A stretch of 47,420 bases of DNA. Source: Bacteroidales bacterium. Lineage in GTDB: Bacteria; Bacteroidota; Bacteroidia; Bacteroidales; UBA7960. The first letter of the stretch is position 1. Each line of letters begins with the position of its first letter. Positions 5,315 through 33,816 of this stretch are shown here, piece by piece. The position numbers were made by a program, and so were the translations under genes. The stretch covers positions 1-47,420 of the forward strand of contig SLCY01000026.1 in assembly GCA_007125585.1 (NCBI GenBank), written 5' to 3'. Under the pieces are notes generated by a model. It worked only from the letters and a program-made list of their open reading frames with translations, did no database searches and was not told the origin of the DNA.

Positions 5315-5320
5315 AAATGC

Positions 5321-5328
5321 TACTTTTG
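5321..5328 (+). promoter_or_regulatory. Candidate Bacteroidota -7 box (TACTTTTG)
   Basis: A perfect TAnnTTTG lies seven bases after the clpB stop and 18 bases before the TTG start of the permease gene. No clear TTG -33 element was seen at the right distance. It may give the permease its own short-leader transcript. Confidence 0.4.
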
Positions 5329-5345
5329 AAAAAAACTGACAAGCG

Positions 5346-6566
5346 TTGAACACTCCTTTGTTCATAGCCAGGCGACTGAGTGGATCCGGTGCTGGTAAGA
5401 CCTTTACCTCGCTAATCAGAAAGATCGCCGTCGTAAGCATTGCCCTCGGCCTGGCCGTGATGATCATCTCCATGGCCGTTGTCACCGGCTTCCAGAATGA
5501 AATCCGGGACAAGGTCATTGGTTTTGGGGCACATATTCAAATCACAAACTTTGACTACAATATTTCCTTTGAGCCTTATCCCATCAGCAGCCAGCAAGAG
5601 TTTACGGAAGATATCCGGAAACTTCCTGACGTAAGGCATGTCCAGGTTTTCGCCACCAAACCGGGCATCATAAAAACAGATGAAGACATCCATGGTGTGA
5701 TCCTTAAAGGAGTTGGACCTGATTTCGACTGGTCCTTTTTTGATGACCGGCTAATCAGGGGGACCACCCTTACAATGGACGATACGCTGCGCTCTGATGA
5801 GGCGATCATATCACAACTGGTGGCCAGGCGAGTGCAACTGGAGGTGGGCGATGACCTTTTCATCTATTTCATTCAGGACCCTCCACGCATAAGAAGGCTG
5901 ATGATTGCAGGGATCTATGATACCGGGCTGGAAGAACTGGACAGAATATTTGTCATGGGTGACATCCGCCATATTCAACGCTTGAATGACTGGTTGCCTG
6001 ATCAAATCGGAGGTTTTGAAATACTGGTGTCCGACTTTACAGCCATACCGGAAGTGACCGAAACGATCCTGAACCTGCTGCCCTATCATCTGAAAGCCAC
6101 AAGCATCAGAGACCTATACCCCCAGATCTTTGACTGGCTGTCGTTGCTGGACATGAACGTATATGTGATCATCGCACTGATGATACTGGTGGCCGGAATC
6201 AATATGGTCACCACACTCCTGATATCGGTACTGGAAAAAACAAACGCCATTGGCATACTAAAGGCGGTAGGCGGCTCAAACAACATGATCAGGAAAGTAT
6301 TCCTTTATCATGCAGGCTTTCTGATATCAAAGGGCTTGGTATGGGGTAACCTGGCTGGGATTGCAATATGCATGATCCAGGGACAATGGGGGCTGATCAC
6401 CCTGTCGCCCGAATCGTACTATGTTTCCGAGGTGCCGGTTAATTTGCAACTGAGCCACATATTGCTGCTGAATGCAGGGACGTTTCTCATATCCGTGGCC
6501 ATGCTCATCATTCCCTCCTATGTCATTGCACGCATCTCCCCGGTACGGACAATTATCTTCAGGTAG
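5346..6566 (+). CDS. FtsX/LolC-type ABC transporter permease
   Basis: 406 residues. The topology is that of the MacB/LolCE permease family: one N-terminal transmembrane helix (about 25-48), a large periplasmic domain, then three helices toward the C terminus, ending in the cytoplasmic arm PVRTIIFR. Relatives extract lipoproteins from the inner membrane or act as mechanotransmission transporters. No ATPase gene is beside it. The start must be TTG at 5346: an in-frame stop lies at 5337-5339 and no ATG occurs before the first helix. Exact substrate unknown. Confidence 0.85.
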   Translation: MNTPLFIARRLSGSGAGKTFTSLIRKIAVVSIALGLAVMIISMAVVTGFQNEIRDKVIGFGAHIQITNFDYNISFEPYPISSQQEFTEDIRKLPDVRHVQVFATKPGIIKTDEDIHGVILKGVGPDFDWSFFDDRLIRGTTLTMDDTLRSDEAIISQLVARRVQLEVGDDLFIYFIQDPPRIRRLMIAGIYDTGLEELDRIFVMGDIRHIQRLNDWLPDQIGGFEILVSDFTAIPEVTETILNLLPYHLKATSIRDLYPQIFDWLSLLDMNVYVIIALMILVAGINMVTTLLISVLEKTNAIGILKAVGGSNNMIRKVFLYHAGFLISKGLVWGNLAGIAICMIQGQWGLITLSPESYYVSEVPVNLQLSHILLLNAGTFLISVAMLIIPSYVIARISPVRTIIFR

Positions 6567-7315: not shown

Positions 7316-9475
7316 TCAGGCGTCGCTTAGTATTTTCATCTTTTCTCTTAAAATGGAAATCTCGCTTTTCGCCCTCTCTATTTTTTCCTCAAATTCAGCT
7401 TTTAAAATATCTGCTTTCTTAGAAGACGCAAAAAAACCAATATTATTTTCCAACACCTGTATGTCTCCTTCCAAATTTTTGATCTTGTTTGTCAGGATGT
7501 TCCTTTCCTTGTAAATAATATTGCCTGCGTTGGGCGCATTTTTCAGGTTTTCAATCTTTGAACGGAATGACAGGGTTGTTTTTGCCTTCTTACTGATATT
7601 CAATACTTCAAACTGATTGTCAATGGCTTTTCTGAATGCTGTCTGTACCTTATCTTTCTGCTTGATCGGCACATGACCAATATCCATCCACTTGCGCTGA
7701 AAATCTTTCAGGATATTCAGGTTCTCTTTATTGTCATTGGAATAGGAATGGTTTTGAATCTCTTCGATCAGGTTGAGCTTCTTTTGCAGATTCTCTTCCT
7801 GTTTTTCCCCGATGTTGGAAAAATGTTCAGATTTTCTGCTGAAGAAAGTATCGCAGGCCTGTCGAAAACGCTTCCAGATCTTGTCAGAAAACTTTGCCGG
7901 CACCGGACCGATCTTCTTCCATTCCTGCTGAAGGTTAATCAACGCTTCGGTTGTCGCACGCCAATCGTCGCTTTCTTTAAGGGCCTCTGCCTGCAGGCAC
8001 AAGTTTAACTTTTGGTTGTAATTTTCTTTCTGCTGGTCTTTATACTTTCTGAAAAACTCCTTCTTGTTGGTAAAAAAAGTATCGAGCGAAGTGCGGAACC
8101 TGTTCCATATTTCGTTATTTACTTTCTTGGGGGCAAAGCCGATGGTTTTCCAAACCTTGAAAAGCTCATTGATCTCATTTGTTTTCTGCTGCCATTGACG
8201 CGGCGTAACCGGTACCAAAGTAATTAGTTCCTCTGCTTTCTCACACAATACAAGCTTGGCAGCATAGTTTTTGTTCTGTTCCTCCCTGAGGCTTTCATAG
8301 TGTTCCTGGCGCCTCTTGTTCAATTTGTCGGTGGCTGCCTTGAAACGCTCCCAGATCTCATCTTTTTTGTCCTGGGGCACAGGACCGATCTCTTTCCAGG
8401 CTTCATGCAGCTTTTGGAGTTGCTGAAATGACCGGATAATTGAAGTTTCAAGTAAAAGTTCTTCCGCCTTTTCGCACAAATCTGTTTTTGCCTCCAGATT
8501 CTTTTTCAGGTCCAGGTCTTTGAGCTCCTTATTGATATTTACTTTATCAAAGAACTTCTCGACCAGAAAATGATAATTGTTCCACAAGGTTCCTTTTGCC
8601 CCTCGTGGAACAGGGCCTGCAGCGCGCCAACGATCCTGCAGGGCATGGAACTGATCGTACGTCTTCTTTAACTCCTCCTCTGAATCTATGAGCTGACGCA
8701 GCGCCTCAAGAATCTCTTCTTTGGCCTTCAGATTGGCCTGCATCTCCAACTCCAAAGCCTTATCGAAAGCCGCCTTTTTCTCTTTATAAATGGAAAATGC
8801 CGCATCGAACCTGTCGGTCAAGGGGTCAGAAACAACTTCTTCGCCTTCCTCATGGGTCTCCTTGCCCAATCTTTGCTCGTAGGATGCCATGTTTTCATCC
8901 CTCAGCAATTTGCGATAGGCAGCTTTTATGAAACCAATGTGTTTGCGAATGTGGTTTACATCCTCACTCGTTACAAGCTCCTCAATGGTCGTGACCAATG
9001 CTTCACGACCCATGGCATTGTATTTATTTAGCAGGGCATCACTATCCTCAGGTTCACTCTCCTGGTCAGTCTTTTGGTCCTTGTCCGTATCCTTCTGACC
9101 GGCAGATGCCTCAACAGATGGCTGGTCACTGGAAGGTTCCTCCGTTTCTTGCTTTTTTTCGGCGGAAGGGCCTTCGGCATCTGGCTTTTCCGCGCCTGCA
9201 TCAGCTTTTTCAGGCTCATCAACCGGTTTTTCCGATGCCGTATCCGGTTTTACTGGTTTTGCATCTGGCTTTTCCGCGCCTGCATCAGTTTTTTCAGGCT
9301 CATCAACCGGTTTTTCCGACACTCCTTCCGGGGTGGCAGGTGCTGTATCTTGTTTTTGTTCCGGCGGACTTTTTTCTTTCGCAGTCTTCGGTTCCTTGGC
9401 TTCATCCCCGGTCATGTGCTCGTCCCCTGCATTTTTTTTCAATGCTTCAGGGGTGGATTGTTCTTTCTTTTCCAT
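7316..9475 (-). CDS. DUF349-repeat protein with charged N-terminal extension
   Basis: 719 residues from the ATG at 9475; a TTG one codon earlier is also possible. The first ~150 residues are a Pro/Glu/Lys/Ala-rich disordered tail containing a near-exact 28-residue duplication. Five DUF349 repeats follow, each carrying a W-(K/R)-x-(I/A)-G-x-(V/A)-P core such as WKEIGPVPQDKKDEIWERF. The C-terminal ~80 residues look like a coiled coil. No enzymatic motif is present. DUF349 proteins are common in Bacteroidota but functionally undefined; the helical repeats suggest a scaffold. It appears monocistronic, with a long leader. Confidence 0.85.
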   Translation of the reverse strand: MEKKEQSTPEALKKNAGDEHMTGDEAKEPKTAKEKSPPEQKQDTAPATPEGVSEKPVDEPEKTDAGAEKPDAKPVKPDTASEKPVDEPEKADAGAEKPDAEGPSAEKKQETEEPSSDQPSVEASAGQKDTDKDQKTDQESEPEDSDALLNKYNAMGREALVTTIEELVTSEDVNHIRKHIGFIKAAYRKLLRDENMASYEQRLGKETHEEGEEVVSDPLTDRFDAAFSIYKEKKAAFDKALELEMQANLKAKEEILEALRQLIDSEEELKKTYDQFHALQDRWRAAGPVPRGAKGTLWNNYHFLVEKFFDKVNINKELKDLDLKKNLEAKTDLCEKAEELLLETSIIRSFQQLQKLHEAWKEIGPVPQDKKDEIWERFKAATDKLNKRRQEHYESLREEQNKNYAAKLVLCEKAEELITLVPVTPRQWQQKTNEINELFKVWKTIGFAPKKVNNEIWNRFRTSLDTFFTNKKEFFRKYKDQQKENYNQKLNLCLQAEALKESDDWRATTEALINLQQEWKKIGPVPAKFSDKIWKRFRQACDTFFSRKSEHFSNIGEKQEENLQKKLNLIEEIQNHSYSNDNKENLNILKDFQRKWMDIGHVPIKQKDKVQTAFRKAIDNQFEVLNISKKAKTTLSFRSKIENLKNAPNAGNIIYKERNILTNKIKNLEGDIQVLENNIGFFASSKKADILKAEFEEKIERAKSEISILREKMKILSDA
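9177..9319 (-). repeat. 59-bp direct repeat (two copies, 84-bp period) in the DUF349 gene
   Basis: Copies at 9177-9235 and 9261-9319 are identical except for one base (C at 9205, T at 9289). They encode a duplicated PDA-to-EKPVDEPEK segment in the disordered tail. One mismatch over 59 bp indicates a recent duplication. Confidence 0.9.
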
Positions 9476-9602
9476 CAAAATGGTTTTCCGTTACTAATTA
9501 AAGTCAAGAAGCAGGTCTTCATTATTCATACACCTGGATTAGGTGTGAGCGCCCAACATATTCGGGCAGTGTGTTTTCGATCGTCATTATGCAATGATAT
9601 TG

Positions 9603-9610
9603 CAAAAATA
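9603..9610 (-). promoter_or_regulatory. Candidate -7 box (TATTTTTG) for the DUF349 gene
   Basis: On the minus strand this is a perfect TAnnTTTG, about 130 bases before the ATG. The resulting leader would contain the small hairpin ACACCT-GGATT-AGGTGT at 9530-9546. No matching -33 element was seen. Confidence 0.35.
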
Positions 9611-9670
9611 GGAATATTTTTCAGGTTTTACATCATTTAAGGGTGTTGGGACCACAGCGCCCCTTCTGTT

Positions 9671-10852
9671 TTATACTTTATCCATCGCCTGTGCCAGGTC
9701 GCTGATGATATCGTTCACATCCTCAATACCGACAGAAAACCTTACCAACCCATCCGTTATACCGCAGCGTTCACGTGCTTCTTTATCCATTTTTGAATGG
9801 GTCATTGAAGCAGGATGTTGGATGAGGGATTCTACACCACCCAGTGAAACGGCCAGCATGCAAAGCTTCACATTGTCCATCAGGGTCTTTCCGGCTGCAA
9901 GGCCGCCCTTCATCTCAAAGCTGATCATGGCTCCGGGACCCCGCATCTGCTTGGAGGCCAGATCATACTGCGGATGAGACAGCAATCCGGGGTATTTAAC
10001 CCATGCCACCTTGGGATGCTCCGCAAGAAAACGGGCAATTTGAATGGCATTCTCCTGTGACCGGTCCATACGGATGGCCAAAGTTTTCAATCCGCGGATA
10101 ATCATATATGCCTGGTGGGGATCCATGTTGCATCCCATATTGATCATCATCGGTCGTAACGTGTCGTCAAACACCTTGTTTTTACTTACAATGATGCCAC
10201 CGACAATATCGGCATGCCCATTCAGGAACTTGGTGATGGAATGAAATACGATGTCAAAGCCGTAATCAAGGGGTTTTTGCAGGTAGGGGCTACAAAAGGT
10301 ATTGTCAGCCACCGTGACAAATTTATGTTCTCTGGCGATCTTTACAACAGCCTCCAGGTCGGTTATGGCCATGGTGGGATTGGCCGGTGTTTCGATATAC
10401 AGCATGCGTGTATTGGGTCGGATCGCCTTCCGGATATTTTCCGGATCATTGGTTTCGACATAAGTTGACTCTATGCCAAACTTGCTGTAATGCTTTTCCA
10501 TCACTACCCTCGAGGGACCATAGACCGCTGCAGTACTGATCATGTGGTCGCCTTGCTTCAACAGGGCGCTGTAAATGGTATTGACTGCACCCATACCGGA
10601 GCTGGTAGCAATGCCGCGGTATCCGTTCTCCAGATCTGCAAGCAGTTTCTCCAGTGAGTCGATCGTCGGGTTATTCAGGCGCGTGTATATGTAACCATCA
10701 GCATCGCCAGCAAAACAGGCGGCCCCATGATCGGCGCTTCTGAACTTAAAAGTACTTGTCTGATAGATCGGTACAGTGGCACTGCCAAACTGATCATCGA
10801 ACATTCCGGAATGTATGAGCTTGGAATCAAAGCCCAGATCTTTTGTATCCAT
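9671..10852 (-). CDS. Cys/Met-metabolism PLP enzyme (methionine gamma-lyase / cystathionine lyase-synthase family)
   Basis: 393 residues, typical of the family. The PLP-binding Schiff-base lysine is K208 in HSITKFLNGH. YIYTRLNNPT at about 55-63 and the C-terminal SVGIEDVNDI are family hallmarks. The enzyme should carry out PLP-dependent gamma- or beta-elimination/replacement on methionine, cystathionine or homoserine esters. The active-site tyrosine (Y111) is followed by GPS, not the GC of characterised methionine gamma-lyases, so that specific activity is not secure. It is followed, 3' on the same strand, by the DUF349 gene. Confidence 0.88.
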   Translation of the reverse strand: MDTKDLGFDSKLIHSGMFDDQFGSATVPIYQTSTFKFRSADHGAACFAGDADGYIYTRLNNPTIDSLEKLLADLENGYRGIATSSGMGAVNTIYSALLKQGDHMISTAAVYGPSRVVMEKHYSKFGIESTYVETNDPENIRKAIRPNTRMLYIETPANPTMAITDLEAVVKIAREHKFVTVADNTFCSPYLQKPLDYGFDIVFHSITKFLNGHADIVGGIIVSKNKVFDDTLRPMMINMGCNMDPHQAYMIIRGLKTLAIRMDRSQENAIQIARFLAEHPKVAWVKYPGLLSHPQYDLASKQMRGPGAMISFEMKGGLAAGKTLMDNVKLCMLAVSLGGVESLIQHPASMTHSKMDKEARERCGITDGLVRFSVGIEDVNDIISDLAQAMDKV

Positions 10853-20130: not shown

Positions 20131-21558
20131 TTAAAAATACAGGTCCCTGTCTCCTGTTTTGATCTGTTCTATTTTTTTCTTCAGCCCGGACACTTCCTGT
20201 TCATGTGTCATCGCCTGCAATTTTTTATCTATCAATTCATAGCCAGCTTTTTTGGTATCCGTGTTCGCATAATCCTCCAGGTACTCAGCCAGTGTAAGCA
20301 GGGCGTTGGGGGTGCAATACCTTTTGATGAAGCCCGGAACGGAAAACGACATGAAATGTTCACCTGTTCGTCCCAGGCGATAGCATGCTGTACAGAATGA
20401 CGGAATATACCCTGAGTTGATCAGTTCACCCATAATTTCATGCAGGGGGCGGGTGTCGTTGATGGGAAACTGCACTTTGTCCAGGCATTTTTTGTCGTGT
20501 TTCCCTTTGGAATAGCCGCCAAGCTCGATGTTGGTCCCGCCGTCGATCTGCGAGACACCGAAACGCATGACCTGGTCGCGGACATGGGAGGGTTCGCGCG
20601 CTGTGAGTATCATGCCTGCATAGGGCACGGCCAAACGAAGGATAGACACCAGGCGCACAAATTCGTTATCTGTAACCAGGTAGTCTTTCCCGATATTCAG
20701 TGACAAAGCATTTTGTATCCTCGGGAAAGAGATGGTATGCGGACCAACATTATAAACGGCTTCAAAATGGTTGACATGGCGAACCAGTCCCAACACCTCG
20801 AAACGCCAGTCATACAATCCCAGGAGCGCACCAATGCCTGTATCGTCAATGCCGGCCTCCTGCGCCCTGTCCAGGGCCGTCAGACGCCATTCATAGTTCC
20901 TTTTTATACCACCCAAATGTACTTTCCTGTATGTTGGCTCATGATACGTCTCCTGGAAGATCTGATACGTCCCGATACCGGCATCCTTGATGGTCCGGAA
21001 ACCCTGAATGTCAAAGGGTGCTGCATTGATGTTCACCCGCCTGATCTCTCCGTTCTTATGCTTGACATCATAAACAATGCGTGCAGTTTCGGCTATGAAC
21101 CCGGCCGAATATTTCGGATGTTCGCCATAAACAAGAATCAGCCGTTTATGCCCCTGTTCTGTCAGCGCTTTCGTTTCCGCAATCAATTCCTGCCTGCTTA
21201 GGGTGATCCGTTTGACCTGCTTGTTGGAAGAACGAAAACCGCAGTACAGGCAGTTATTCTTGCACAGGTCACCGACATAGAGCGGAGCAAAAAGCACAAT
21301 GCGCTCACCATATACTTTCTCTTTCAGGAGGCGTGCGGCTTCCCTGATCTCCTCAATAAGCTCCGGGTCTTCAGCATTTATCAAAACGGCAGTCTCTTCC
21401 AGCGAAAGGCGCTTTTTGTCAAGGGAGGCACTGATCACATCTCGTACCCGCTGCTTGTCCGCCTTCACCCCCTTGAGATAGTTCCATATCTCATCAGCAT
21501 CAATGAAAGGTTGCATGCGTTTATCTGCTAACCGGTATTTTTCGGGACGATAAATCAC
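20131..21558 (-). CDS. hydG: [FeFe]-hydrogenase H-cluster maturase HydG
   Basis: 475 residues. HydG is a radical-SAM tyrosine lyase that makes the CO and CN ligands of the H-cluster. The SAM cluster motif CKNNCLYC (CxxxCxxC) lies around residue 100, and the second, C-terminal cluster has the HydG-specific CX2CX22C spacing in CTACYR...C. Length is standard. The start is GTG at 21558. Partner maturases HydE and HydF are not in this window. A perfect -7 box overlaps a motif shared with the hydC upstream region. Confidence 0.96.
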   Translation of the reverse strand: MIYRPEKYRLADKRMQPFIDADEIWNYLKGVKADKQRVRDVISASLDKKRLSLEETAVLINAEDPELIEEIREAARLLKEKVYGERIVLFAPLYVGDLCKNNCLYCGFRSSNKQVKRITLSRQELIAETKALTEQGHKRLILVYGEHPKYSAGFIAETARIVYDVKHKNGEIRRVNINAAPFDIQGFRTIKDAGIGTYQIFQETYHEPTYRKVHLGGIKRNYEWRLTALDRAQEAGIDDTGIGALLGLYDWRFEVLGLVRHVNHFEAVYNVGPHTISFPRIQNALSLNIGKDYLVTDNEFVRLVSILRLAVPYAGMILTAREPSHVRDQVMRFGVSQIDGGTNIELGGYSKGKHDKKCLDKVQFPINDTRPLHEIMGELINSGYIPSFCTACYRLGRTGEHFMSFSVPGFIKRYCTPNALLTLAEYLEDYANTDTKKAGYELIDKKLQAMTHEQEVSGLKKKIEQIKTGDRDLYF

Positions 21559-23738: not shown

Positions 23739-25787
23739 TTATCCGGTGAGCTTGTCATCCAGGATTTCCCTTTTTTTTTCCTGTGCTTTCTTGGGCAATG
23801 TAACAATAAACACCGTTCCTGTTGGTCCTTTGCCGGGATCGTCGTTCGATTCAAACTTTATGTTGCCACGGTGCATTTTGATGATGCCATAAATAATGGG
23901 CAGTCCAAGGCCTGTACCCTGACCGGTCTTTTTGGTGGTAAAAAATGGTTCAAACATTTTTTCCATATTCTCTTTGGAGATCCCGGTGCCGGTGTCGCTG
24001 ATCCGGAACTCGAGGGTATCACCGTCATCTTTATCATCTGCGCTTATGGCGAGTATGCCCCCATCGGGCATTGCATCCACGGCATTTTTAAACAAATTAG
24101 AAAACACTTGTTCCATCTGGTCATAATCACATTCCATGACGGGATCGGGGGCATGTATCTTAATGTCAAGCGACACATTCCGGGGCAATGGGAAGGTTTT
24201 TAAGGCACCTTTAATCAACTTGCTTACCTTGACCTTGTCGATGGTCACTTTGCTCTTTCTGGCAAAGTTCAGGAGTCCGCCAACGATTTTCTTGCACCTG
24301 TCGGCTTGTTCAACGATCAACTGCAGGTCTTTATAAAATGGCGAGGAAGGATCGAGTTCTTCCAAAAGGATATGGCTATACATAATGACCACCCCCAGGG
24401 GGTTGTTCACTTCATGGGCGATGCCTGCGGCCAGTTGCCCCATTGAGGCAAGCTTTTCACTTTGCTTAAGCGCCGCCTGTGTCGAGGCAAGCTTCTTGTT
24501 CGACACATCCAGTTCAGAAATATAATCATGCAACTGGTCGATGGTATAAGGCAGGCACATCTCCGATTCCGCCAGTCCCTGTAGAATGGCGACTGCATGT
24601 TCCTGGCAGGTATCATAACCACAAGCGCCACAGTTTAATTCATCTTCCGGTTCTTTTTTGCCAAACTTTTGCAACACCTCCCTGATCTCATTTTCAGGGT
24701 ATTTATAAGGGAAGCGCTGATCATCACCTTCAAAGCTTCTTTTCATGTTGAGCTGAAGGTACGTATCCAGGTCTTGCTGCCATTTGTTTATGTCGATAAG
24801 GTCCGATCGCTTTTTGGCAAAATTGGAGATTTTCTTTCTTTTGAAAAAGAACTGATGTTTATGACTCATCCCGGGCCCTTTGATACAGCCGTTGCAGCAA
24901 AGCAGGTCAAACATTTTGGCTTCCAGGTAACCCTCTTCAAACTCTCGCAACACCTCGATCACATCGTGACGCCCTTCTGCTACGATGATATCCCCTTTCA
25001 TAAAGTCCTCCTCCAGGTCGACAGTTTGAAGCATGCCCCCGCTGATAGGAAAAATGGTGCCTTTTCCTGCCACTGGCGGATCAAACTCAGTGGGTGCCAC
25101 ATTGTCTTCTGTCAGGTTCTTTTCATCAAACATGCGCCTCAACTCGACAAAGGAAATAACCTCATCAATCAAACCCTCAAATTGTTGTTCTCCGGCCTCC
25201 ACTTTCTTGGCGATACAGGGCCCTACAAATACGATACGCAAGTCATCACCATGCTTTTCTCTGAGGACTTTGGCTGTGGCGATCATAGGGGAGACCACCG
25301 GAAACAGCGAATCGACTATCCCGGGATGGTACTTTTCCACATAGCTCACGATGGCAGGGCAACTTGTAGAGATCAGGGGGCGGTTGGGCTTACTCTGCAG
25401 TATTTCCTTGTATTTGTGGGCAACAAGCTCTGCCCCAAAAGCTACCTCGTTAACGTAGTCAAACCCCAGGGCTTTGATCATGCCAACAAAATAAACATAA
25501 CTTGAGATGTCGGTAAATTCTCCGGCAATACTGGGCGCTACGATGGCGGCCACTTTTTGATCGCCTGACAATAATTTTTTTACCTTATCGATCGCAAAGG
25601 CAAACATTTTGGCGTCCCTGTTGCATACACGGATACAGTTACCGCAGGCGATACACCTTTCCGGGATGATCCCTGCCTGGCCGTTCATGATTTTAATCGC
25701 TTTTGCCGGGCATTCGCGCACGCAGGTATAACAGACCTTACAGCGATCCTGGATCGTATATATAATCTCTTTATTCTTTTCTGCCAT
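23739..25787 (-). CDS. Sensory [FeFe]-hydrogenase-like protein fused to a histidine kinase
   Basis: 682 residues. Domains: two ferredoxin-type [4Fe-4S] motifs (about 14-57); an iron-hydrogenase H domain (about 75-330) with TSCP (C143), GPCIAKK (C191, with the conserved Lys) and CCNGCIKGPG (C297, C298, C301); a Fes-type [4Fe-4S] domain (C386, C389, C394, C411); a HisKA domain with H458 in GIAHEVNNP; and an ATPase domain with NLFKNAVDAM, DTGTGI, FEPFFTTK and GTGLGL. The proton-transfer Cys of catalytic enzymes (the first C of TSCCP) is missing, as in known sensory hydrogenases. Its start overlaps the hydA 3' end by 17 bp. It probably senses H2 or redox state and phosphorylates the next gene's product. 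Confidence 0.92.
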   Translation of the reverse strand: MAEKNKEIIYTIQDRCKVCYTCVRECPAKAIKIMNGQAGIIPERCIACGNCIRVCNRDAKMFAFAIDKVKKLLSGDQKVAAIVAPSIAGEFTDISSYVYFVGMIKALGFDYVNEVAFGAELVAHKYKEILQSKPNRPLISTSCPAIVSYVEKYHPGIVDSLFPVVSPMIATAKVLREKHGDDLRIVFVGPCIAKKVEAGEQQFEGLIDEVISFVELRRMFDEKNLTEDNVAPTEFDPPVAGKGTIFPISGGMLQTVDLEEDFMKGDIIVAEGRHDVIEVLREFEEGYLEAKMFDLLCCNGCIKGPGMSHKHQFFFKRKKISNFAKKRSDLIDINKWQQDLDTYLQLNMKRSFEGDDQRFPYKYPENEIREVLQKFGKKEPEDELNCGACGYDTCQEHAVAILQGLAESEMCLPYTIDQLHDYISELDVSNKKLASTQAALKQSEKLASMGQLAAGIAHEVNNPLGVVIMYSHILLEELDPSSPFYKDLQLIVEQADRCKKIVGGLLNFARKSKVTIDKVKVSKLIKGALKTFPLPRNVSLDIKIHAPDPVMECDYDQMEQVFSNLFKNAVDAMPDGGILAISADDKDDGDTLEFRISDTGTGISKENMEKMFEPFFTTKKTGQGTGLGLPIIYGIIKMHRGNIKFESNDDPGKGPTGTVFIVTLPKKAQEKKREILDDKLTG

Positions 25788-27513
25788 GGTCTTTTTGTTC
25801 TTTGAACCGGTTGTTCAGCCACTCCAAGGCCAAATCATTATCTGGTGCCAGCTTATCCGCCTTGAATACGGATTGGACTATGGGGTTTTCTCCTGCGGTT
25901 TCAAAGGGGCTGTTTTTTTCCATTTCGATGCAAAATCGTTTACGGGCCCTGGCATCTTCAAAACCACGGCTGATTGGCTGGCCGCCTCCACCGGCGCAAC
26001 CACCCAGGCAGGCCATCACTTCCACATAGTGGATGTCGTCTCGTTGCTGGTCATCCAGCTGCTTAAGGTAGCTTTCAGCTTCAGCAATACTGCTGACCCA
26101 CGCAAAGCCAACTTTCTTTTTACCGATATTAATTTTTATCTCACGCTTTCCCGTCATGTTTTTGGGAAGGTTGAACTTGAAGCTGTCTTTCCTGGGGTTG
26201 GCCATCATGTTGAATACCTCGTGGGCCACTGCCTCTGCTTTACCTCCTGAGTAGCCGAGCTTCCAGGCGGCAGCAGAAGGGGTATTGTAAGGCTCGTCGG
26301 GCGCCTCCTCCTCCATGTGGGGAAGATCCAGGCCAAAGCCACGCAAGAGCTGAAAAAACTCCCTGACGGTCAGCACAGCATCTACTTCCGAAACGCCTTT
26401 GTGGGTATTCTTCTCGAGTGAGGCTTCATACTTTTTTGCCACACAGGGCATGACAGCTACGGTGAAGATTTCTTCCTGTTCTATTCCGTTGTGCTGGGCA
26501 TAAATGGTTTTCAGCAGGGTGGCCAGGGTCTGTTGTGGTGATTTGTTCAAAGACAGTGCCGAAACAGATTGCGGGCGAAACTCTTCCACATACCGCACCA
26601 GGGACGGGCAACAGGATGAGATCATGGGGGAAGGGCTTGCAACATCGCTTTGCAGCCTTTCTGCAAGCATCCTGGCTTCCTGCAGCACATGGATGTCGTT
26701 AGCGGCACCCAGGTCGAACACTTTTGCTGCGCCACATCTTCTGAGGGCGGCGACGATACGGTGCATCACATTCTGCCTGGGCTTCATCCCCGACTTTTCC
26801 GCCACAGATGCCACCACCGACGGGCTGATGAAGAACATCACCTGTCTGTCCTTTTTTCCAAGCGCTGCCTGCACTTTGTCCACATGGGGGATGTCCAGCA
26901 AGGCAGCCGTGGGACAAACCTGGATGCATTGACCGCAGTGGATGCAGTCAGACACATTCAGCCCCTTGTTAAAGGCACTGTTCACCCTGGTCTGGTTGCC
27001 CCGCGAGATAAAGTCGATGGCGGTGACCAGTTGCACTTCTTCACAAATACGCACGCAACGGCTGCAAAGGATGCACTTGGCAGGGTCCCGTGCCACACTG
27101 CTGCTTGAGTAATCAGGGAAAAAAGCATTCTTCCGCGCAAAATATTTTCTCTCCTTTACATTCATCTCCCCGGCCAACCACTGCAGCTCGCAATGACCGT
27201 TGCGCTGACAATAAAGGCAGTCGTCGGGATGGTTCGACAACAGCAACTCCACAAGTGCCTTGCGGGCACGAATAACCCGCTGGGAATTCGTCCTTACCTT
27301 CATGCCCTTTTGAACAGTGCTAGAGCAGGAGGTGACCAGGTCGCGGGTGCCTTCAACCTCTACCACGCACAAACGGCACGCCCCCGATGGTGAAAAACGG
27401 TTCATGTGGCATAAAGTAGGGATCTTAAAACCATGTTCGCGCAATGCCGACAGCAAGGTCTCCCCTTCACGGACATTGATAAGCTTGTTGTTGACTTCAA
27501 TCTGAAACTCCAT
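25771..27513 (-). CDS. hydA: Catalytic subunit of trimeric [FeFe]-hydrogenase (HydA)
   Basis: 580 residues. N-terminal [2Fe-2S] domain (C35, C46, C49, C63), His-ligated [4Fe-4S] (HPDDCLYC...C), two ferredoxin clusters (about 147-200), then the H domain: SSCCPSLV (C301, C302), MPCVAKK (C357, K360), VMACLGGCAGGGGQ (C502, C506), and a small-subunit domain at the C terminus. All H-cluster ligands and the proton-transfer Cys are present. With HydB and HydC it should couple H2 with NAD(H), and possibly ferredoxin by electron bifurcation. Some second-sphere residues deviate from the clostridial enzyme. It lacks the extra C-terminal [2Fe-2S] domain of the longer Thermotoga HydA. Confidence 0.94.
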   Translation of the reverse strand: MEFQIEVNNKLINVREGETLLSALREHGFKIPTLCHMNRFSPSGACRLCVVEVEGTRDLVTSCSSTVQKGMKVRTNSQRVIRARKALVELLLSNHPDDCLYCQRNGHCELQWLAGEMNVKERKYFARKNAFFPDYSSSSVARDPAKCILCSRCVRICEEVQLVTAIDFISRGNQTRVNSAFNKGLNVSDCIHCGQCIQVCPTAALLDIPHVDKVQAALGKKDRQVMFFISPSVVASVAEKSGMKPRQNVMHRIVAALRRCGAAKVFDLGAANDIHVLQEARMLAERLQSDVASPSPMISSCCPSLVRYVEEFRPQSVSALSLNKSPQQTLATLLKTIYAQHNGIEQEEIFTVAVMPCVAKKYEASLEKNTHKGVSEVDAVLTVREFFQLLRGFGLDLPHMEEEAPDEPYNTPSAAAWKLGYSGGKAEAVAHEVFNMMANPRKDSFKFNLPKNMTGKREIKINIGKKKVGFAWVSSIAEAESYLKQLDDQQRDDIHYVEVMACLGGCAGGGGQPISRGFEDARARKRFCIEMEKNSPFETAGENPIVQSVFKADKLAPDNDLALEWLNNRFKEQKDHGRKE

Positions 27514-27530
27514 AACAAAAGAAGATGGCG

Positions 27531-29480
27531 CTATTTGACGATTACCGCGTTAAACTTACAAACATCATAACAGATGCCACAGCCAATACATTTATCCTGG
27601 ACAATAAAATGAGGGTACCGTGGAGATCCGATGATGGCATCCACGGGACATTTTTTAAAACAAGCCGTACACCCTGTACATGCATCCACATCGATAAAAA
27701 AGTCCTTCAGGTCGGTACAGACATTGGCGGCACATTTTCTTTCGAAAATATGCGCATCGAATTCCTCCTTAAAATATTTAAGCACATTTAAAATGGCATT
27801 AGGCGATGACTTGCCAAGGGAACATAGGGACGTTTCGCTGATAACGCTTGCCAAACTTTTTAGTTGCATCACCCCTTTAAACCGTTCCAGTGTCTGGAAA
27901 GATTTTTCCTTATCAGGCTTGCGGGTTACGTTTTCCATCACCTCCAGCATCCTTGCTGTACCTTCCCTGCACGGGATACATTTTCCGCAGCTTTCTTTTT
28001 GGAAATAGGCCGTAAAGAACCTGGCCAGGTCTACCATACAGACATTCTGATCCAGGACGACAAAAGCACCGCTGCCCAGGGAGGCTCCTGTTTTTTTCAT
28101 TTCTTCAAAGTCCAGCCTTGTATCAAGCGTCTCTTCGGTGATGAAGCTCCCGCTGTTAATGCCCAGCACAATGGCCTTAAAGTCTTTGTCCGTGGCCATC
28201 CCCCCCCCTATTTTATGGATGATATCCTTGAAAGACATACCCATGGGCACTTCAGCGGTGCCAGTATAACACAGGCTGCCGGACAGGGTAAACAGTTTTG
28301 TACCCTTGCTGTTCTCTGTGCCGGCAGAACGGAACCATTCGACCCCGTTCTTCATAATAAGGGGCACATTGAACAATGTTTCCACGTTGTTGACAATGGT
28401 TGGTTTATTCCACAGGCCCTTCTGCGAAGGATACGGAGGTTTGGATGATGGCATGGCCCTTTTGCCTTCGATACTGCTTATCAGTGCTGTTTCTTCGCCA
28501 CATACAAAGGCCCGCGCACCCTTCTTCACCTCCAGCTCAATATTCACTCCCGAATCGAATATGTGGTGTCCGACCAAACCAACTTCCCGTGCCTGACCTA
28601 AGGCCTTTTCAAGGCGTTCGACGGCCAGGGTGAACTCTTCACGGATAAAGATATAGGCTTTGCTCGCCCCAACAGCATAGGCACCTATTAAAACGGCCTC
28701 TATCAAACGGTGCGGATTGCTCTCTATGATGGTCCTGTTCATATGGCTTCCGGGGTCACTCTCAAAAGCGTTGCATACGAAGTATTTCTGGTCGCTCACC
28801 GCCTTCAGGGCGGCAGCCCACTTTTTTCCTGTCGGGAAGCCACCGCCACCACGGCCGGCCAGGCTGCTGCGGGTGATGATGTCACACACCTGATCGGGTG
28901 TATGCCGCGAAATCGTATCGGCAAAAGCCCAGTAACCCCCTTTGGCGATATAGCTTTCTGCCGACACCGGATCAATGACCCCGCAGTGCTCCAGCAACAT
29001 TCTGTGCTGCTGTGCGAAAAACGGATGCTCTTCCACAAAGGGCACCTGGTCCCATTGCTGCACGATAGGATTCTTATACTGACCCAATAAAGGGAGCGAC
29101 GGCAGGTTATCGTTCAGCATATCATCCAGCAGGGTCTGCACCTTGTCGGCGGTCACCCTGGAAAAAGACAAACGGGCCTTGCCGGGCAACTGCACATCCA
29201 CCAAGGGCTCCTCAGTACAAAGACCAACACATCCCCCTTCCACCAAATCAACATCGCTGCCGCTATCCTGAAGGTATTCCTGAATGGCCGCATGGGTCTT
29301 ATCCGCACCTGCAATACGTCCACAGGTAGCCATCCCGACGTAAATGACAGGCCTGTGGACCCTTTCACCGGAGATGTGCGACAAGGGTTTTTTTAAGGAG
29401 GCATTTGCACCCCTCTGGGGATCAAGCAATACCTGGTCGATCAGAAACTGACGGGTGTCTCTGGCTGTACCTGAAGTCAT
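27531..29480 (-). CDS. hydB: NuoF-like flavoprotein subunit of trimeric hydrogenase (HydB)
   Basis: 649 residues. A thioredoxin-like [2Fe-2S] domain (about 45-130) precedes the NuoF core with the FMN loop GRGGGGFPTGKKW, the NADH-site segment CNAFESDPGSHMNR, and the N3-type cluster SCGKCIPCREGT. Two ferredoxin-type [4Fe-4S] motifs close the protein (CTGCTACFKKC and CIGCGICYDVC). It should hold FMN and exchange electrons with NAD(H). Two conserved positions differ: Phe instead of Asp in NADE, and AMPSSKPP instead of the usual G-x-PRxxPP. It overlaps hydC by four bases and precedes hydA by 17 bp. Confidence 0.93.
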   Translation of the reverse strand: MTSGTARDTRQFLIDQVLLDPQRGANASLKKPLSHISGERVHRPVIYVGMATCGRIAGADKTHAAIQEYLQDSGSDVDLVEGGCVGLCTEEPLVDVQLPGKARLSFSRVTADKVQTLLDDMLNDNLPSLPLLGQYKNPIVQQWDQVPFVEEHPFFAQQHRMLLEHCGVIDPVSAESYIAKGGYWAFADTISRHTPDQVCDIITRSSLAGRGGGGFPTGKKWAAALKAVSDQKYFVCNAFESDPGSHMNRTIIESNPHRLIEAVLIGAYAVGASKAYIFIREEFTLAVERLEKALGQAREVGLVGHHIFDSGVNIELEVKKGARAFVCGEETALISSIEGKRAMPSSKPPYPSQKGLWNKPTIVNNVETLFNVPLIMKNGVEWFRSAGTENSKGTKLFTLSGSLCYTGTAEVPMGMSFKDIIHKIGGGMATDKDFKAIVLGINSGSFITEETLDTRLDFEEMKKTGASLGSGAFVVLDQNVCMVDLARFFTAYFQKESCGKCIPCREGTARMLEVMENVTRKPDKEKSFQTLERFKGVMQLKSLASVISETSLCSLGKSSPNAILNVLKYFKEEFDAHIFERKCAANVCTDLKDFFIDVDACTGCTACFKKCPVDAIIGSPRYPHFIVQDKCIGCGICYDVCKFNAVIVK

Positions 29481-29950
29481 AGGGTGCTGTTTTCTTTATC
29501 CCGGATTGACCCAACAAGGTCTTTTAGTTTATCCAGGGTAATGTTCGTATAAAACTGATCATTGATCTCTATCAGTGGGGCCAGTCCGCAAGCGCCAACG
29601 CAGTTCACAACCTCCAGGCTGAACAGGCCCTTTTTGTCTGTTTCGCGGTCACTGACATTCAGTAGCTTTTCAAGCTCTTTCAGCAATGTCGCAGCACCCG
29701 CTACGTGACATGCGGTGCCATGGCACAAACGGAAGTGATACCGGCCAACCGGGCCGAAACGGAAATTATCATAAAAAGTAGCCACCCCATAGATCTTGTT
29801 GGCACTGATTTCAAGATAATCAGCCACAGCATTGACGATCTCTTCCGATAAGAATCCATGAATATCCTGGGTGGACTGTAAAATTGGGATCAAATCCTCT
29901 CGACGCCGATTGGGGAATTTCTGAAATATTTGTGCTGTATCAATTTCCAT
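29477..29950 (-). CDS. hydC: NuoE-like [2Fe-2S] subunit of trimeric hydrogenase (HydC)
   Basis: 157 residues, thioredoxin-like [2Fe-2S] ferredoxin of the NuoE family. The four ligands are C76, C81 (CHGTAC), C117 and C121 (CVGAC). The N-terminal helical bundle contains LIPILQSTQDIHGFL and YGVATFYDNFRF, both typical. It passes electrons between HydB and HydA or stabilises the complex. It is the first gene of the minus-strand operon hydC-hydB-hydA-sensor kinase-receiver, in which the genes overlap or are separated by fewer than 20 bp. Confidence 0.94.
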   Translation of the reverse strand: MEIDTAQIFQKFPNRRREDLIPILQSTQDIHGFLSEEIVNAVADYLEISANKIYGVATFYDNFRFGPVGRYHFRLCHGTACHVAGAATLLKELEKLLNVSDRETDKKGLFSLEVVNCVGACGLAPLIEINDQFYTNITLDKLKDLVGSIRDKENSTL

Positions 29951-30277: not shown

Positions 30278-30535
30278 ATGACACACAGATTCAGTGGTGA
30301 GATCGTCATATGTATGGGCAGCAGTTGCTTCTCAAGGGGAAACAAACACACACTTGGGTTGATAAGAAGCTACCTGAAGGAACGGGGACTTGAGGAGATG
30401 CTTGTTTTCAAAGGGGCCCATTGTGTTGGAGAATGTGAGAACGGTCCTGTGCTTTCGATAAATGATACAAAATACACAAAGGTCCGTTTTGAGAACATAA
30501 CGGAATTGCTTGACAGGCATTTTTCAAATCAATGA
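30278..30535 (+). CDS. Thioredoxin-like [2Fe-2S] ferredoxin
   Basis: 85 residues. The whole protein is one TRX-fold ferredoxin domain with ligands C12, C17 (CMGSSC), C49 and C53 (CVGEC), the same spacing as in HydC/NuoE. Similar small ferredoxins accompany sensory hydrogenases and SpoIIE-type phosphatases in other anaerobes. It is the first gene of the plus-strand operon and likely transfers electrons to or from the H-domain protein encoded next. No export signal. Confidence 0.88.
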   Translation: MTHRFSGEIVICMGSSCFSRGNKHTLGLIRSYLKERGLEEMLVFKGAHCVGECENGPVLSINDTKYTKVRFENITELLDRHFSNQ

Positions 30536-30647: not shown

Positions 30648-32501
30648 ATGCAAATCATAAACATAGACCATGATCGTTGTACAAGGTCCTATGCCTGCAT
30701 CAGGACTTGTCCGGTCAAAGCCATCACCACCCGGGGCAAGGACGGGATGCCGGTTGTGAACCACAACCGTTGCATCGGATGCGGGAGTTGCCTGAACGTA
30801 TGCGCATCCGATGCTGTTTCTCATTTGAGCGATGTGGAGGATACTGTTTCGCTCCTTTCGTCAAAACACCGGGTGGCTGCCATTGTCGATCCGACCATCA
30901 GCGGGGAGTTTCCCGATATCACCGATTACCGCAAATTTGTGGAGATGATACGCACCCTTGGTTTTGACTATGTAAACGAGGTATCTTTCGGCGTTGACCT
31001 GGTAGCGATGAAATACCATGAGTTGCTGTCGAATTTCAAGGGCAAATATTACCTGTTGGCCAATTGTCCGAGCCTGGTATCCTATGTGGGAAAATTTTTT
31101 CCGGAACTTACCGATAACCTGGCCCCTGTTGTCACACCGATGACAGCCACAGCAAAAGTCGTCCGTGAAGCATTTGGCGAGGACCTGAAGGTGGTATTCA
31201 TCGGGCCGTGTTTGTCGGCAAAACATGAGGCCGGGTTGCACAAAGGGACGGGAAAAGTGGATGCGGTGCTGACATTCAGGGAGCTGCGCGAGCTTTTCAA
31301 ACGATCTGACATCAAGGAAGCCAAAGTAGAGTATTCCGATTTCGACAAACCCATTGGCTACCTCGGCTCCCTCTACCCTATCAGTAATGGCATCCTGCAG
31401 GCAGCTGGCCTGGATGATTCGCTGACGGGAGGCAAGGTGATAACCGTAGAGGAAAAGATCAACATGCTGGATGCAGTGGATGAATTCAATGATCATCCTG
31501 AGTCACTGAAAAAGCATTTCAATATTTTTTATCATGCCGGCTGTCTTACCGGCCCCGGCACGACAGATCAATCGAACAGGTACCTGCGCCGGACCATGGT
31601 GGTGGATTATGTTCACAAGCGGCTGAAGGGCTTTGACAAAGGCCAGTGGAAAAAAGAACTGGAAAGATATATGCACACAGACCTGGGGCGGACCTTCCGG
31701 AAAGATGACCAACGACTGCCCCAGCCGGACAATGAACAATTGGAAGAGGTGCTGAAAAGCCTGGGCAAGCGGCTTGAAGAAACCGCGGCCTGCAATGCCT
31801 GTGGCTTTAGGAGCTGCCGCGACTTTGCCACCTCCATCAGCCAGGGACTGTCCAAACCGGAAATGTGCCTGAATTATTCCATCAAAAACAAGCAGGATTA
31901 TATCAAAACCCTGAAAAACAATAACGAGAAACTGAAAAAACAACAGGAAGGATTGCTGGAAAAGGAAAAGTCACTGCTGGAAGAAAACCAGAAACTCAAA
32001 CAGCGATCGGACACCACTTCCACCCTTCTGAAAAATCTGCCATCGGCAGCCGTCATTGTTGACGAAAAACTAAAGGTATTGGAATCAAACGAAAGCTTTG
32101 TCAAGGTCCTGGGCGAGGATGCCAAGATCATCAATGAGGTCATACCGGGACTTACAGGTGCCGATCTGAAAACCTTGCTTCCCTATAACCTGTATAACCT
32201 CTTCATGTATGTATTGGAAAACGATGAAAACATTATCGGTAAAGACGTACAACACGATGACCGTCTGCTGAATGTCAGCATCTATTCACTGAAGCCCAAC
32301 AAGATCGTCGGAGGGGTTTTCCGTGATATGTATGTGGCTGAGGTGAGGCAGGAAGAGATCATCAACAGGGTGAGTGAGGCGATTGACGAGAACCTGAAGA
32401 TGGTGCAGCAGATTGCGTTTTCTTTGGGTGAAGGGGCCAGCACGACAGAGAAGATGCTGAACTCTATCATTGAAACTTACCGGAAGAAAAAGAAGGATTG
32501 A
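30648..32501 (+). CDS. Hydrogenase-like sensor with PAS domain and incomplete H-cluster ligands
   Basis: 617 residues from the ATG at 30648; an ATG 11 codons earlier is possible, but MQIINIDHDRC fits relatives better. Domains: two ferredoxin motifs, the first with Ser14 replacing the second Cys (C11, S14, C17, C21); an H domain (about 75-330) with ANCPSLV (C140), GPCLSAK (C188, Ala191 at the conserved Lys position) and YHAGCLTGPG (C299, but Tyr295 where a cubane ligand is expected); a Fes-type CNACGFRSC...C domain; a coiled coil; and a PAS domain. It probably cannot hold a normal H-cluster. It likely relays redox state to the phosphatase encoded 130 bp downstream. Confidence 0.9.
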   Translation: MQIINIDHDRCTRSYACIRTCPVKAITTRGKDGMPVVNHNRCIGCGSCLNVCASDAVSHLSDVEDTVSLLSSKHRVAAIVDPTISGEFPDITDYRKFVEMIRTLGFDYVNEVSFGVDLVAMKYHELLSNFKGKYYLLANCPSLVSYVGKFFPELTDNLAPVVTPMTATAKVVREAFGEDLKVVFIGPCLSAKHEAGLHKGTGKVDAVLTFRELRELFKRSDIKEAKVEYSDFDKPIGYLGSLYPISNGILQAAGLDDSLTGGKVITVEEKINMLDAVDEFNDHPESLKKHFNIFYHAGCLTGPGTTDQSNRYLRRTMVVDYVHKRLKGFDKGQWKKELERYMHTDLGRTFRKDDQRLPQPDNEQLEEVLKSLGKRLEETAACNACGFRSCRDFATSISQGLSKPEMCLNYSIKNKQDYIKTLKNNNEKLKKQQEGLLEKEKSLLEENQKLKQRSDTTSTLLKNLPSAAVIVDEKLKVLESNESFVKVLGEDAKIINEVIPGLTGADLKTLLPYNLYNLFMYVLENDENIIGKDVQHDDRLLNVSIYSLKPNKIVGGVFRDMYVAEVRQEEIINRVSEAIDENLKMVQQIAFSLGEGASTTEKMLNSIIETYRKKKKD

Positions 32502-32631: not shown

Positions 32632-33816
32632 ATGACCGAACCATTTTACATAGAAGTCGGGGCAGCGCAGCGAAACCACATGGGTGAGCGCATCTGCGGC
32701 GACATCTTCTTGTCTGAGAAGGTAAAGGAAGAGGGCCGCACCGTCGTGGTCCTGTCAGACGGCATGGGACACGGGGTCAAAGCCAATCTTCTGGCCACAC
32801 TGACAGCCACCATGGCACTCAACTTCACCAAAGAGCATAAAGACGCTCACAAGATCGCAGAGATCATCATGAATACACTTCCGGTCTGCAGTGAGCGCAA
32901 GATCAGTTATGCCACCTTTACTGTCATGGACATTGACAAGGATGGACAATGTACCATCCTCAATTATGACAATCCCGATACCATTGTTATACGACAGGAT
33001 AAAAAATATGAGCTTAGATGGGAGCCTATCACCCTGAAGGGCGATGACAGCTTGGAAAAAGAGATCAGGGCATGTACTTTCAAAGCACAAAAAGAGGACC
33101 GGATCTTACTGATGACAGACGGTATTACCCAGTCGGGACTGGGTAAAGACAAGTTTTTGCTTGGATGGGGCTTTGAAAATGTGGCAGAGCATATCGTTTC
33201 GCTGACAAAAGAGCAGCCGGACATCTCCGCTGCCAGGCTGGCATCGATGGTTGTGAACAAGGCCCACGCCAACGATGGCTACCAGGCCAAAGACGACACC
33301 AGCGCTTTGGTGGTCTATTTTCGCGACCCCCGTCGCCTGCTCATATGTTCAGGGCCGCCTTATGAAAAGGATAAAGACAAGGAACTGGCATCGGTGGTAA
33401 AACATTTCAACGGTAAAAAGATTCTTTGTGGCGGCACCACAGCAGACATTGTGTCGAGGGAGCTGGGCATCCCCATTGAGGACAACCTGGAGTTTGACGA
33501 TCCTGACCTGCCCCCTGTCTCTTTTATGGAAGGGATCGACCTGGTAACGGAAGGGATCCTGACGCTCAGCAAGACTGCAGAGATATTGGATAATTACAGT
33601 CAGCGAACGGATCTTGGGAAAGGCCCGGCCGACAGCATTGTCAGGCAGATCCTTGAAAGTGATGAGATCCATTTGCTCACAGGCACCGCCATCAATGTTG
33701 CACATCAGGATCCGAACCTTCCTGTGGAGCTGGAGATTCGAAGGTCGGTCATGGGTAAGATCGCAAAGGTTCTGGAAGAAAAATTTTTGAAAGAGGTGAG
33801 TTTGCGGTATATTTGA
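32632..33816 (+). CDS. SpoIIE-type PP2C serine/threonine phosphatase
   Basis: 394 residues. The N-terminal ~235 residues are a PP2C domain: ICGDIFLSEK, the metal-binding SDGMGHGVKAN, MTDGITQSG and KDDTSALVV supply the usual acidic residues. The remaining ~160 residues contain an ILCGGTTADIVSRELGI segment of a type often found C-terminal to this domain in hydrogenase-linked phosphatases; its function is unknown. The placement after a PAS/H-domain protein suggests that redox or H2 input controls dephosphorylation of an unidentified target. No partner kinase or anti-sigma pair is adjacent. Confidence 0.9.
   Translation: MTEPFYIEVGAAQRNHMGERICGDIFLSEKVKEEGRTVVVLSDGMGHGVKANLLATLTATMALNFTKEHKDAHKIAEIIMNTLPVCSERKISYATFTVMDIDKDGQCTILNYDNPDTIVIRQDKKYELRWEPITLKGDDSLEKEIRACTFKAQKEDRILLMTDGITQSGLGKDKFLLGWGFENVAEHIVSLTKEQPDISAARLASMVVNKAHANDGYQAKDDTSALVVYFRDPRRLLICSGPPYEKDKDKELASVVKHFNGKKILCGGTTADIVSRELGIPIEDNLEFDDPDLPPVSFMEGIDLVTEGILTLSKTAEILDNYSQRTDLGKGPADSIVRQILESDEIHLLTGTAINVAHQDPNLPVELEIRRSVMGKIAKVLEEKFLKEVSLRYI

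Follow-up and report, generated by a model that had tools for sequence, protein, structure and literature searches.

The window analysed here is a 47,420-nucleotide stretch of DNA (contig C105) from a Bacteroidales draft genome of 2.57 Mb, which was assembled into 120 contigs and is 96.5% complete. Its plus strand carries a three-gene operon in the order of a small thioredoxin-like ferredoxin (FD2), a HydS-like sensor (HYDS2), and a SpoIIE/PP2C phosphatase. The opposite strand carries hydC, hydB, hydA, a kinase-linked HydS paralogue, a response regulator, and rex, all of which point away from the sensor operon (Table 1). Translation gave the extent of the sensor ORF and the residues Ser14, Ala191, and Tyr295 exactly as claimed in the original prediction for this DNA. 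The phosphatase beside the sensor was the sole SpoIIE match in a search of the host genome, with a score of 73.4 bits against the Pfam cutoff of 25 (PF07228). An extension of approximately 155 residues at its C-terminus (33349–33813) lies outside this Pfam match and is conserved with the phosphatase of Ruminococcus albus; it may be a candidate receiver of the signal from the sensor.

Table 1. Features of the sensor locus (positions in the window; residue numbers are those of the sensor).
Feature	Position	Strand	Basis
HydG maturase gene	20134–21528	-	TIGR03955, E 1.8e-146
Kinase-linked HydS paralogue; every ligand present, internal control	23739–25787	-	Sequence and Pfam
HydABC hydrogenase genes, divergent from the sensor operon	25771–29950	-	Profile matches
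FD2, small [2Fe-2S] thioredoxin-like ferredoxin, first gene of the operon	30278–30535	+	PF01257, E 3.9e-9
HYDS2, HydS-like sensor	30648–32501	+	617-aa intact ORF; AF2 model, mean pLDDT 86.4
N-terminal two-cluster ferredoxin domain, residues 1–60, Ser14 for one of eight Cys	30648–30827	+	PF13237/PF12838
Ser14 codon	30687–30689	+	Translation and alignment
H-domain, residues 75–330	30870–31637	+	PF02906, E 2.9e-37; fold match
Cys140, retained cubane ligand column	31065–31067	+	Cys in 149/156 non-gap orthologue rows
Cys188, retained cubane ligand column	31209–31211	+	Cys in 146/157 non-gap orthologue rows
Ala191, replaces Lys after PCxx	31218–31220	+	Alignment
Tyr295, conserved, non-ligand column	31530–31532	+	Tyr 130, Phe 21 of 158
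His296, actual site of the missing cubane Cys	31533–31535	+	Alignment, tree
Cys299, retained ligand column	31542–31544	+	Cys in 148/153 non-gap orthologue rows
Fes domain, Cx2Cx4Cx16C, Cys382/385/390/407	31791–31868	+	PF04060, over Pfam cutoff
Long helix 408–462, likely coiled coil	31869–32033	+	AF2 secondary structure
PAS domain 467–560	32046–32327	+	Predicted fold, Z 13.9 to CitA PAS
C-terminal signalling helix 564–615	32337–32492	+	AF2 model; mean conservation 0.74, top among segments compared
SpoIIE/PP2C phosphatase, 394 aa with C-terminal extension	32632–33816	+	PF07228, E 3e-20

The sensor is composed of a two-cluster ferredoxin domain, an [FeFe] H-domain, a Fes domain, a long helix, a PAS domain, and a C-terminal helix, in this order. 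Residues 1–353 of the full AF2 model matched [FeFe] hydrogenases, with Z-scores of 39.7 for CbA5H (349 residues at 2.9 Å) and 38.2 for CpI (4xdc). Since this whole-model search of PDB folds listed hydrogenases only, the C-terminal part was folded separately, which gave a match to the PAS domain of CitA over 97 residues at 1.7 Å. The Fes-type cluster domain, which had been predicted together with a PAS domain, was recovered by Pfam, whereas the PAS domain was recovered by its predicted fold, its Pfam score in the window protein falling short of the cutoff; at E 0.01, PAS_8 matched 41 of the 79 rows aligned. Against TIGR04105, the NCBIfam model for monomeric [FeFe] hydrogenase, the window protein scored 177.9 bits, which is below the curated cutoff of 450.

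For comparison, an alignment was prepared that contains 158 distinct orthologue rows (the window protein included and one short fragment dropped), 56 rows of kinase-linked paralogues, and three Firmicutes relatives from plasmid records of R. albus, Monoglobus, and Acetoanaerobium. A SpoIIE phosphatase gene adjoins the relative in R. albus and Monoglobus (two of three); in the Acetoanaerobium record, which is unannotated there, no PP2C gene was evident by eye among the downstream plus-strand ORFs. Orthologues were detected at E 1e-120 in 119 of 393 sampled genomes of one order, most of which are drafts. A sample of the phylum searched at E 1e-80 gave matches in 23 of 395 genomes and no full-length orthologue outside the order: the 22 genomes other than that of the window matched residues 3–432 only, in open frames of 656–710 aa, which is the size of the kinase-linked paralogue. 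Public genome contigs yielded 17 related loci, 16 from metagenome Bacteroidales or related Bacteroidota and one weak cyanobacterial match. Two divergent sensor copies were observed on opposite strands of a single contig (L216 in genome G734, 4091–5956 and 8649–10511).

The original prediction took Tyr295 to be the position of a lost cubane ligand. The loss itself was borne out by the alignment, although the residue concerned is the next one. Column 296 is Cys in all 56 paralogues and all three Firmicutes rows, while column 295 is Cys in just 30 paralogues (Phe 22, Leu 2, Gly 1, Ala 1), so that 296 was identified as the true ligand column. Tyr295 was rejected as the lost ligand, since Tyr or Phe at this position is normal family-wide (151 of 158 orthologues), also among the 87 orthologue rows that keep all four cubane cysteines (Tyr 64, Phe 18). 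The paralogue in the window has two adjacent cysteines at 295 and 296, and these probably misled the first assignment. In a profile alignment to HydA1 of T. kivui (8a6t), column 296 was paired with the first Cys of the L3 motif, in a segment that is below significance alone. As judged from the alignment, the fourth cubane cysteine is lost in the window protein, which has His at 296.

Among the 158 orthologues, column 296 is Cys in 88 and another residue in 70 (Asn 26, His 20, Asp 13, Lys 5, Gly 5, Arg 1). Cys was taken as ancestral because neither the 56 paralogues nor the three Firmicutes rows have any other residue there. The minimum number of changes at 296 was then 10 on the whole-protein tree, 11 on the tree of the C-terminal half, and 8 on that of the N-terminal part; these are quick LG+G4 trees, of which the whole-protein tree was built without the motif columns and carries a warning that some of its long branches meet. 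In 59 rows the Cys at 296 is the only ligand lost, and every one of these rows has Asn, His, or Asp there instead, with the other three cubane ligands present (one row is gapped at one of them). By chance, seven of seven tree changes leading to Asn, Asp, or His would be expected at 2.7e-8; this value, calculated with BLOSUM62 and approximate background frequencies for changes counted from the tree by eye, is a rough guide only and was not used as evidence. His296 is confined to a supported clade that corresponds to the genus-level group of the window, where it occupies 20 of 20 rows. The H-domain showed a median dN/dS of 0.074 in this clade, based on the 71 of 190 pairs that could be used and with dS close to saturation, indicating that the sensor gene is under constraint. 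Such purifying selection, together with the occurrence of His296 in all rows of the clade, shows that this residue is not there by chance. The draft state of the host genome and an in-frame stop in a few relatives of the sensor could be taken as signs of a pseudogene or a sequencing artefact; this is very improbable, as the ORF is intact and conservation across genomes and purifying selection both contradict it.

We also looked for a neighbouring cysteine that might serve as the substitute ligand, a finding that would have spoken against the original prediction. This was ruled out for the window protein, because all of its 14 cysteines are located within cluster columns and no spare one is left. 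Another Cys within residues 60–335 is carried by 24 of the 70 rows without Cys296, most commonly at column 80 (7 rows). Both types of sensor were present as distinct rows in 20 of the fetched stretches. The phosphatase-linked sensor lacks Cys296 in 12 of these, and in all 12 the kinase-linked partner retains every ligand and the Lys after PCxx.

Two or more ligands were lost in 11 rows, which comprise two clades of five and one single row (L069). One clade (L082, L083, L187, L189, L192) has one or none of the four cubane cysteines left, and the other (L086, L197, L198, L200, L201) has none, its fourth column being a gap. The ferredoxin and Fes cysteines are kept in all 10 rows of these clades, as is the PP2C gene where sequence room allows. 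Such rows resemble what would be expected of an empty H-site, for which the H-domain would be a structural scaffold and redox would be sensed by the ferredoxin and Fes clusters alone. For the window protein, however, this is improbable: its clade keeps the other three cubane cysteines in every non-gap row, and the His at 296 common to that clade would not be needed by an empty site.

The remaining two substitutions were found as predicted. Ser14 occupies a ferredoxin-cluster column at which all 56 paralogues have Cys, and Ala191 replaces a Lys after PCxx that is likewise invariant in these paralogues and present in the three Firmicutes relatives. This Lys holds a cyanide ligand in CpI. Its loss is near-universal in the orthologues, of which 2 of 158 have Lys at column 191. 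Column 14, by contrast, is variable (Cys 101, Ser 50, Thr 2, and Asn 1 in 154 non-gap rows), with at least 8 changes on the tree. The three substitutions do not form one package: no linkage was found between the losses at 14 and 296, for which there were just four well-supported independent pairs. Ser14 is located at the middle Cys of the first ferredoxin motif, where it possibly gives rise to a [3Fe-4S] or Ser-ligated cluster. The other seven ferredoxin cysteines are present in all 154 non-gap rows, and the four Fes cysteines in 158, 158, 157, and 158 of the 158 orthologues.

The gene order of the operon is largely maintained among relatives. Where the sequence reaches far enough (151 loci), the sensor is followed by a PP2C gene in 141; in the other ten, every sensor is a four-Cys row. 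Three metal-site motifs of PP2C, searched with patterns of our own choice, are intact in 141 of the 142 neighbours found. FD2 is located upstream of the sensor in 116 of the 145 loci with room; Asn, Asp, and four-Cys rows are all represented among the 29 loci that lack it, and CX4C..CX3C is present in all 122 FD2 sequences found. A divergent HydC gene lies no more than 1500 bases away in 46 of 93 loci with room. In a four-Cys clade (L091, L093, L211, L212, L214, L215), neither PP2C nor the small ferredoxin is adjacent to the sensor, though a PP2C gene lies a few kilobases off in L091. In six other loci (L062, L063, L067, L068, L071, L084), the PP2C gene of the sensor operon immediately adjoins a second HydABC-like cluster.

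HydG was detected over the cutoff in 68 of the 77 genomes tested, including that of the window. It had no match in four (G033, G049, G088, G095) and sub-cutoff matches only in five, and these nine cases may be assembly gaps. Loss of the maturation system was therefore unsupported as a cause of the loss at 296. Genome G049, rated 98% complete, has a four-Cys sensor with an odd L3 motif (L094, 7953–9833). A canonical RsbU/SpoIIE partner-switching partner was also rejected, since no free-standing small STAS anti-anti-sigma protein was present among the PF01740 matches in the 96.5% complete host genome. There were only two such matches; their open frames, 561 and 380 aa long, were judged by eye to encode a SulP-like transporter and a part of an ABC (Mla-like) cluster. 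A second HydABC-like operon is located on contig C51 of the host genome (G000; L219, 1632–9652), preceded by ORFs for a response-regulator/ATPase, a PHP-like protein, and another ATPase (all read by eye), together with an RsbW-like ATPase (PF13581 over cutoff). This locus offers a candidate partner kinase for the PP2C in the window.

At the sequence level, the window protein combines seven of the eight ferredoxin cysteines, four Fes cysteines, and three of the four cubane cysteines with His296 and the loss of the Lys in the [2Fe] pocket. With a probability of roughly 0.55, we consider it to be a phosphatase-linked HydS sensor whose H-site has been remodelled for redox rather than H2 sensing. 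The site would hold a plain [4Fe-4S] cluster of Cys3-His or Cys3-open coordination with little or no [2Fe] subcluster, so that the sensor would read reducing pressure (ferredoxin/NADH) instead of splitting H2. Reducing equivalents would possibly be delivered by the small [2Fe-2S] protein, and the resultant state would be relayed through the Fes domain, long helix, PAS domain, and C-terminal helix of a probable dimer, and would thereby switch the PP2C phosphatase. For TamHydS, a group D sensor without PAS, it is reported that the C-terminal cluster is not reduced by H2 (PMC13104023), which argues against a simple redox relay through Fes and makes the last relay steps guesswork.

The original prediction offered either pure redox sensing or an altered cluster; both options received partial support and both stand. 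The altered cluster is backed by the 59 rows described above, in which the loss is limited to 296 and the other three ligands are in place. A loss of H2 chemistry is backed by the near family-wide loss of the Lys and by the two clades that lack three or four cubane cysteines while keeping PP2C. The latter observations suggest that signalling no longer needs H2 chemistry, and the strict choice of Asn, His, or Asp with three retained cysteines suggests that the cluster still matters. The repeated loss of cubane cysteines within an operon that is otherwise kept suggests that hydrogen may not be sensed by these proteins in the manner of the parent enzyme. Several points weigh against the remodelled H-site. 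Many family members could hold an H-cluster, given that 87 of 158 rows keep four cubane cysteines, and the presence of HydG means that the H-cluster could be made. The replacements at 296 are polar and potentially capable of ligation in 59 of 59 rows, which suggests that the cluster is still tuned at this site.

A full H-cluster may instead be kept, with a His-ligated cubane of raised potential that senses H2 at a shifted threshold and with a bias toward oxidation; the Asn and Asp relatives would then be other settings of the same tuning site. This reading is consistent with the three intact cubane cysteines, including Cys299, which we take to be the equivalent of the bridging Cys, as well as with the uniform replacements at 296 and the HydG gene in the genome of the window. 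It is less likely, because the pocket Lys is gone nearly family-wide, two related clades lack three or four cubane cysteines, and Asn is a rare Fe-S ligand. Sensory enzymes, moreover, are reported to keep the hydrogen-bonding residues of [2Fe] (PMC10055695). What makes it a serious rival is the behaviour of a Cys-to-His cubane variant, in which the potential is raised by approximately 200 mV and H2 oxidation is reported to be enhanced at high overpotential (PMC8569811, PMC11376134).

Viewed more broadly, the fourth cubane ligand might be a natural tuning or gating site, at which Cys was repeatedly changed to His, Asp, or Asn so that an H2 sensor was turned into a general redox or small-molecule sensor driving PP2C. 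The H-domain would then contain a non-cysteine or open-site [4Fe-4S] cluster, and two clades would have discarded most or all of the site; we put this forward tentatively, at somewhat less than even odds. Within one conserved operon, and beside a fully liganded paralogue, the number of cubane ligands ranges in nature from four down to zero, and this allows one to ask directly whether phosphatase-linked HydS signalling depends on H2 chemistry. In addition, a cubane ligand that, to our knowledge, has so far been varied only in the laboratory is here found naturally exchanged for His, Asp, or Asn. The assumption for sensory [FeFe] hydrogenases is that H2 is read via the H-cluster, and their cubane ligands are reported to be conserved (PMC10055695). 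The open-access literature searched, with few subscription journals among it, gave no account of PP2C-linked HydS proteins that have lost ligands of the H-cluster.

HydDB describes group C3 as phosphatase-linked with an undetermined role (PMC5037454). The window protein resembles this group in the sequence and fold of its H-domain, the adjacency of a PP2C gene, and the presence of Cx2Cx4Cx16C and PAS (the latter by predicted fold). It differs in that His296, with no spare Cys, stands in place of the fourth cubane cysteine and Ala191 in place of the PCxxK Lys; on account of these two active-site features, it is not called a hydrogenase here. The HydS locus of R. albus (pRUMAL01, L107) has the same order of ferredoxin, HydS, and PP2C genes as the window operon. 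Full-length matches stand at 24% of 613 columns for the sensor and 32% of 394 for the phosphatase, its C-terminal extension included, which together with the gene order allowed us to assign the window protein to the HydS-PP2C module; FD2 and the R. albus gene in the equivalent position share 31% over 78 columns. Unlike the window protein, R. albus HydS keeps all four cubane cysteines (CxxxC in L3) and the Lys, and its locus also contains adhE and a second hydrogenase-like gene. When R. albus was grown together with an H2 consumer, expression of this gene cluster was reportedly 111-fold lower, and its control by direct H2 sensing was proposed (PMC6776011). In Thermoanaerobacterium, HfsB is described as a PAS-containing homologue of HydS that lies next to a phosphatase-like protein, HfsC, and in this the two resemble the window pair (PMC5707799, PMC11837493); there, deletion of hfsB was reported to increase adhE expression and ethanol yield, and that of hfsC or hfsD to divert flux to lactate (PMC5707799). 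HydS of Thermotoga maritima likewise has an H-domain with PAS, but is reported to keep the cubane cysteines and the [2Fe]-binding residues (PMC10055695). H-domains without [2Fe] are also known: eukaryotic Nar1/CIAO3 is such a homologue (PMC12621388), which has retained the counterpart of the cubane site as a [4Fe-4S] site but, unlike the window sensor, functions in iron-sulphur assembly, and HydA of bifurcating NiFe enzymes has an H-domain with [4Fe-4S] only (PMC9304861).

The kinase-linked paralogue in the window (C1-like) shares 41% identity with the sensor over residues 3–441, so that the H-domain of the window protein is nearer to this paralogue than to the R. albus protein (24%). Its L3 loop is the same as that of the sensor and one residue shorter than that of R. 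albus. In contrast to the sensor, all ligands and the Lys are kept in 56 of 56 paralogue rows, and the output is a histidine kinase. A His at a cubane ligand position, as in the window protein, is also found in the Cys-to-His variant of an algal [FeFe] hydrogenase, though this is an engineered enzyme and not a natural sensor; the PDB fold listing includes the Chlamydomonas HydA1 C377H structure (6gl6). The ligand changed in the algal variant is presumably at the same position as 296. Besides raising the potential and enhancing H2 oxidation at high overpotential, this substitution is reported to abolish H+ reduction (PMC8569811, PMC11376134).
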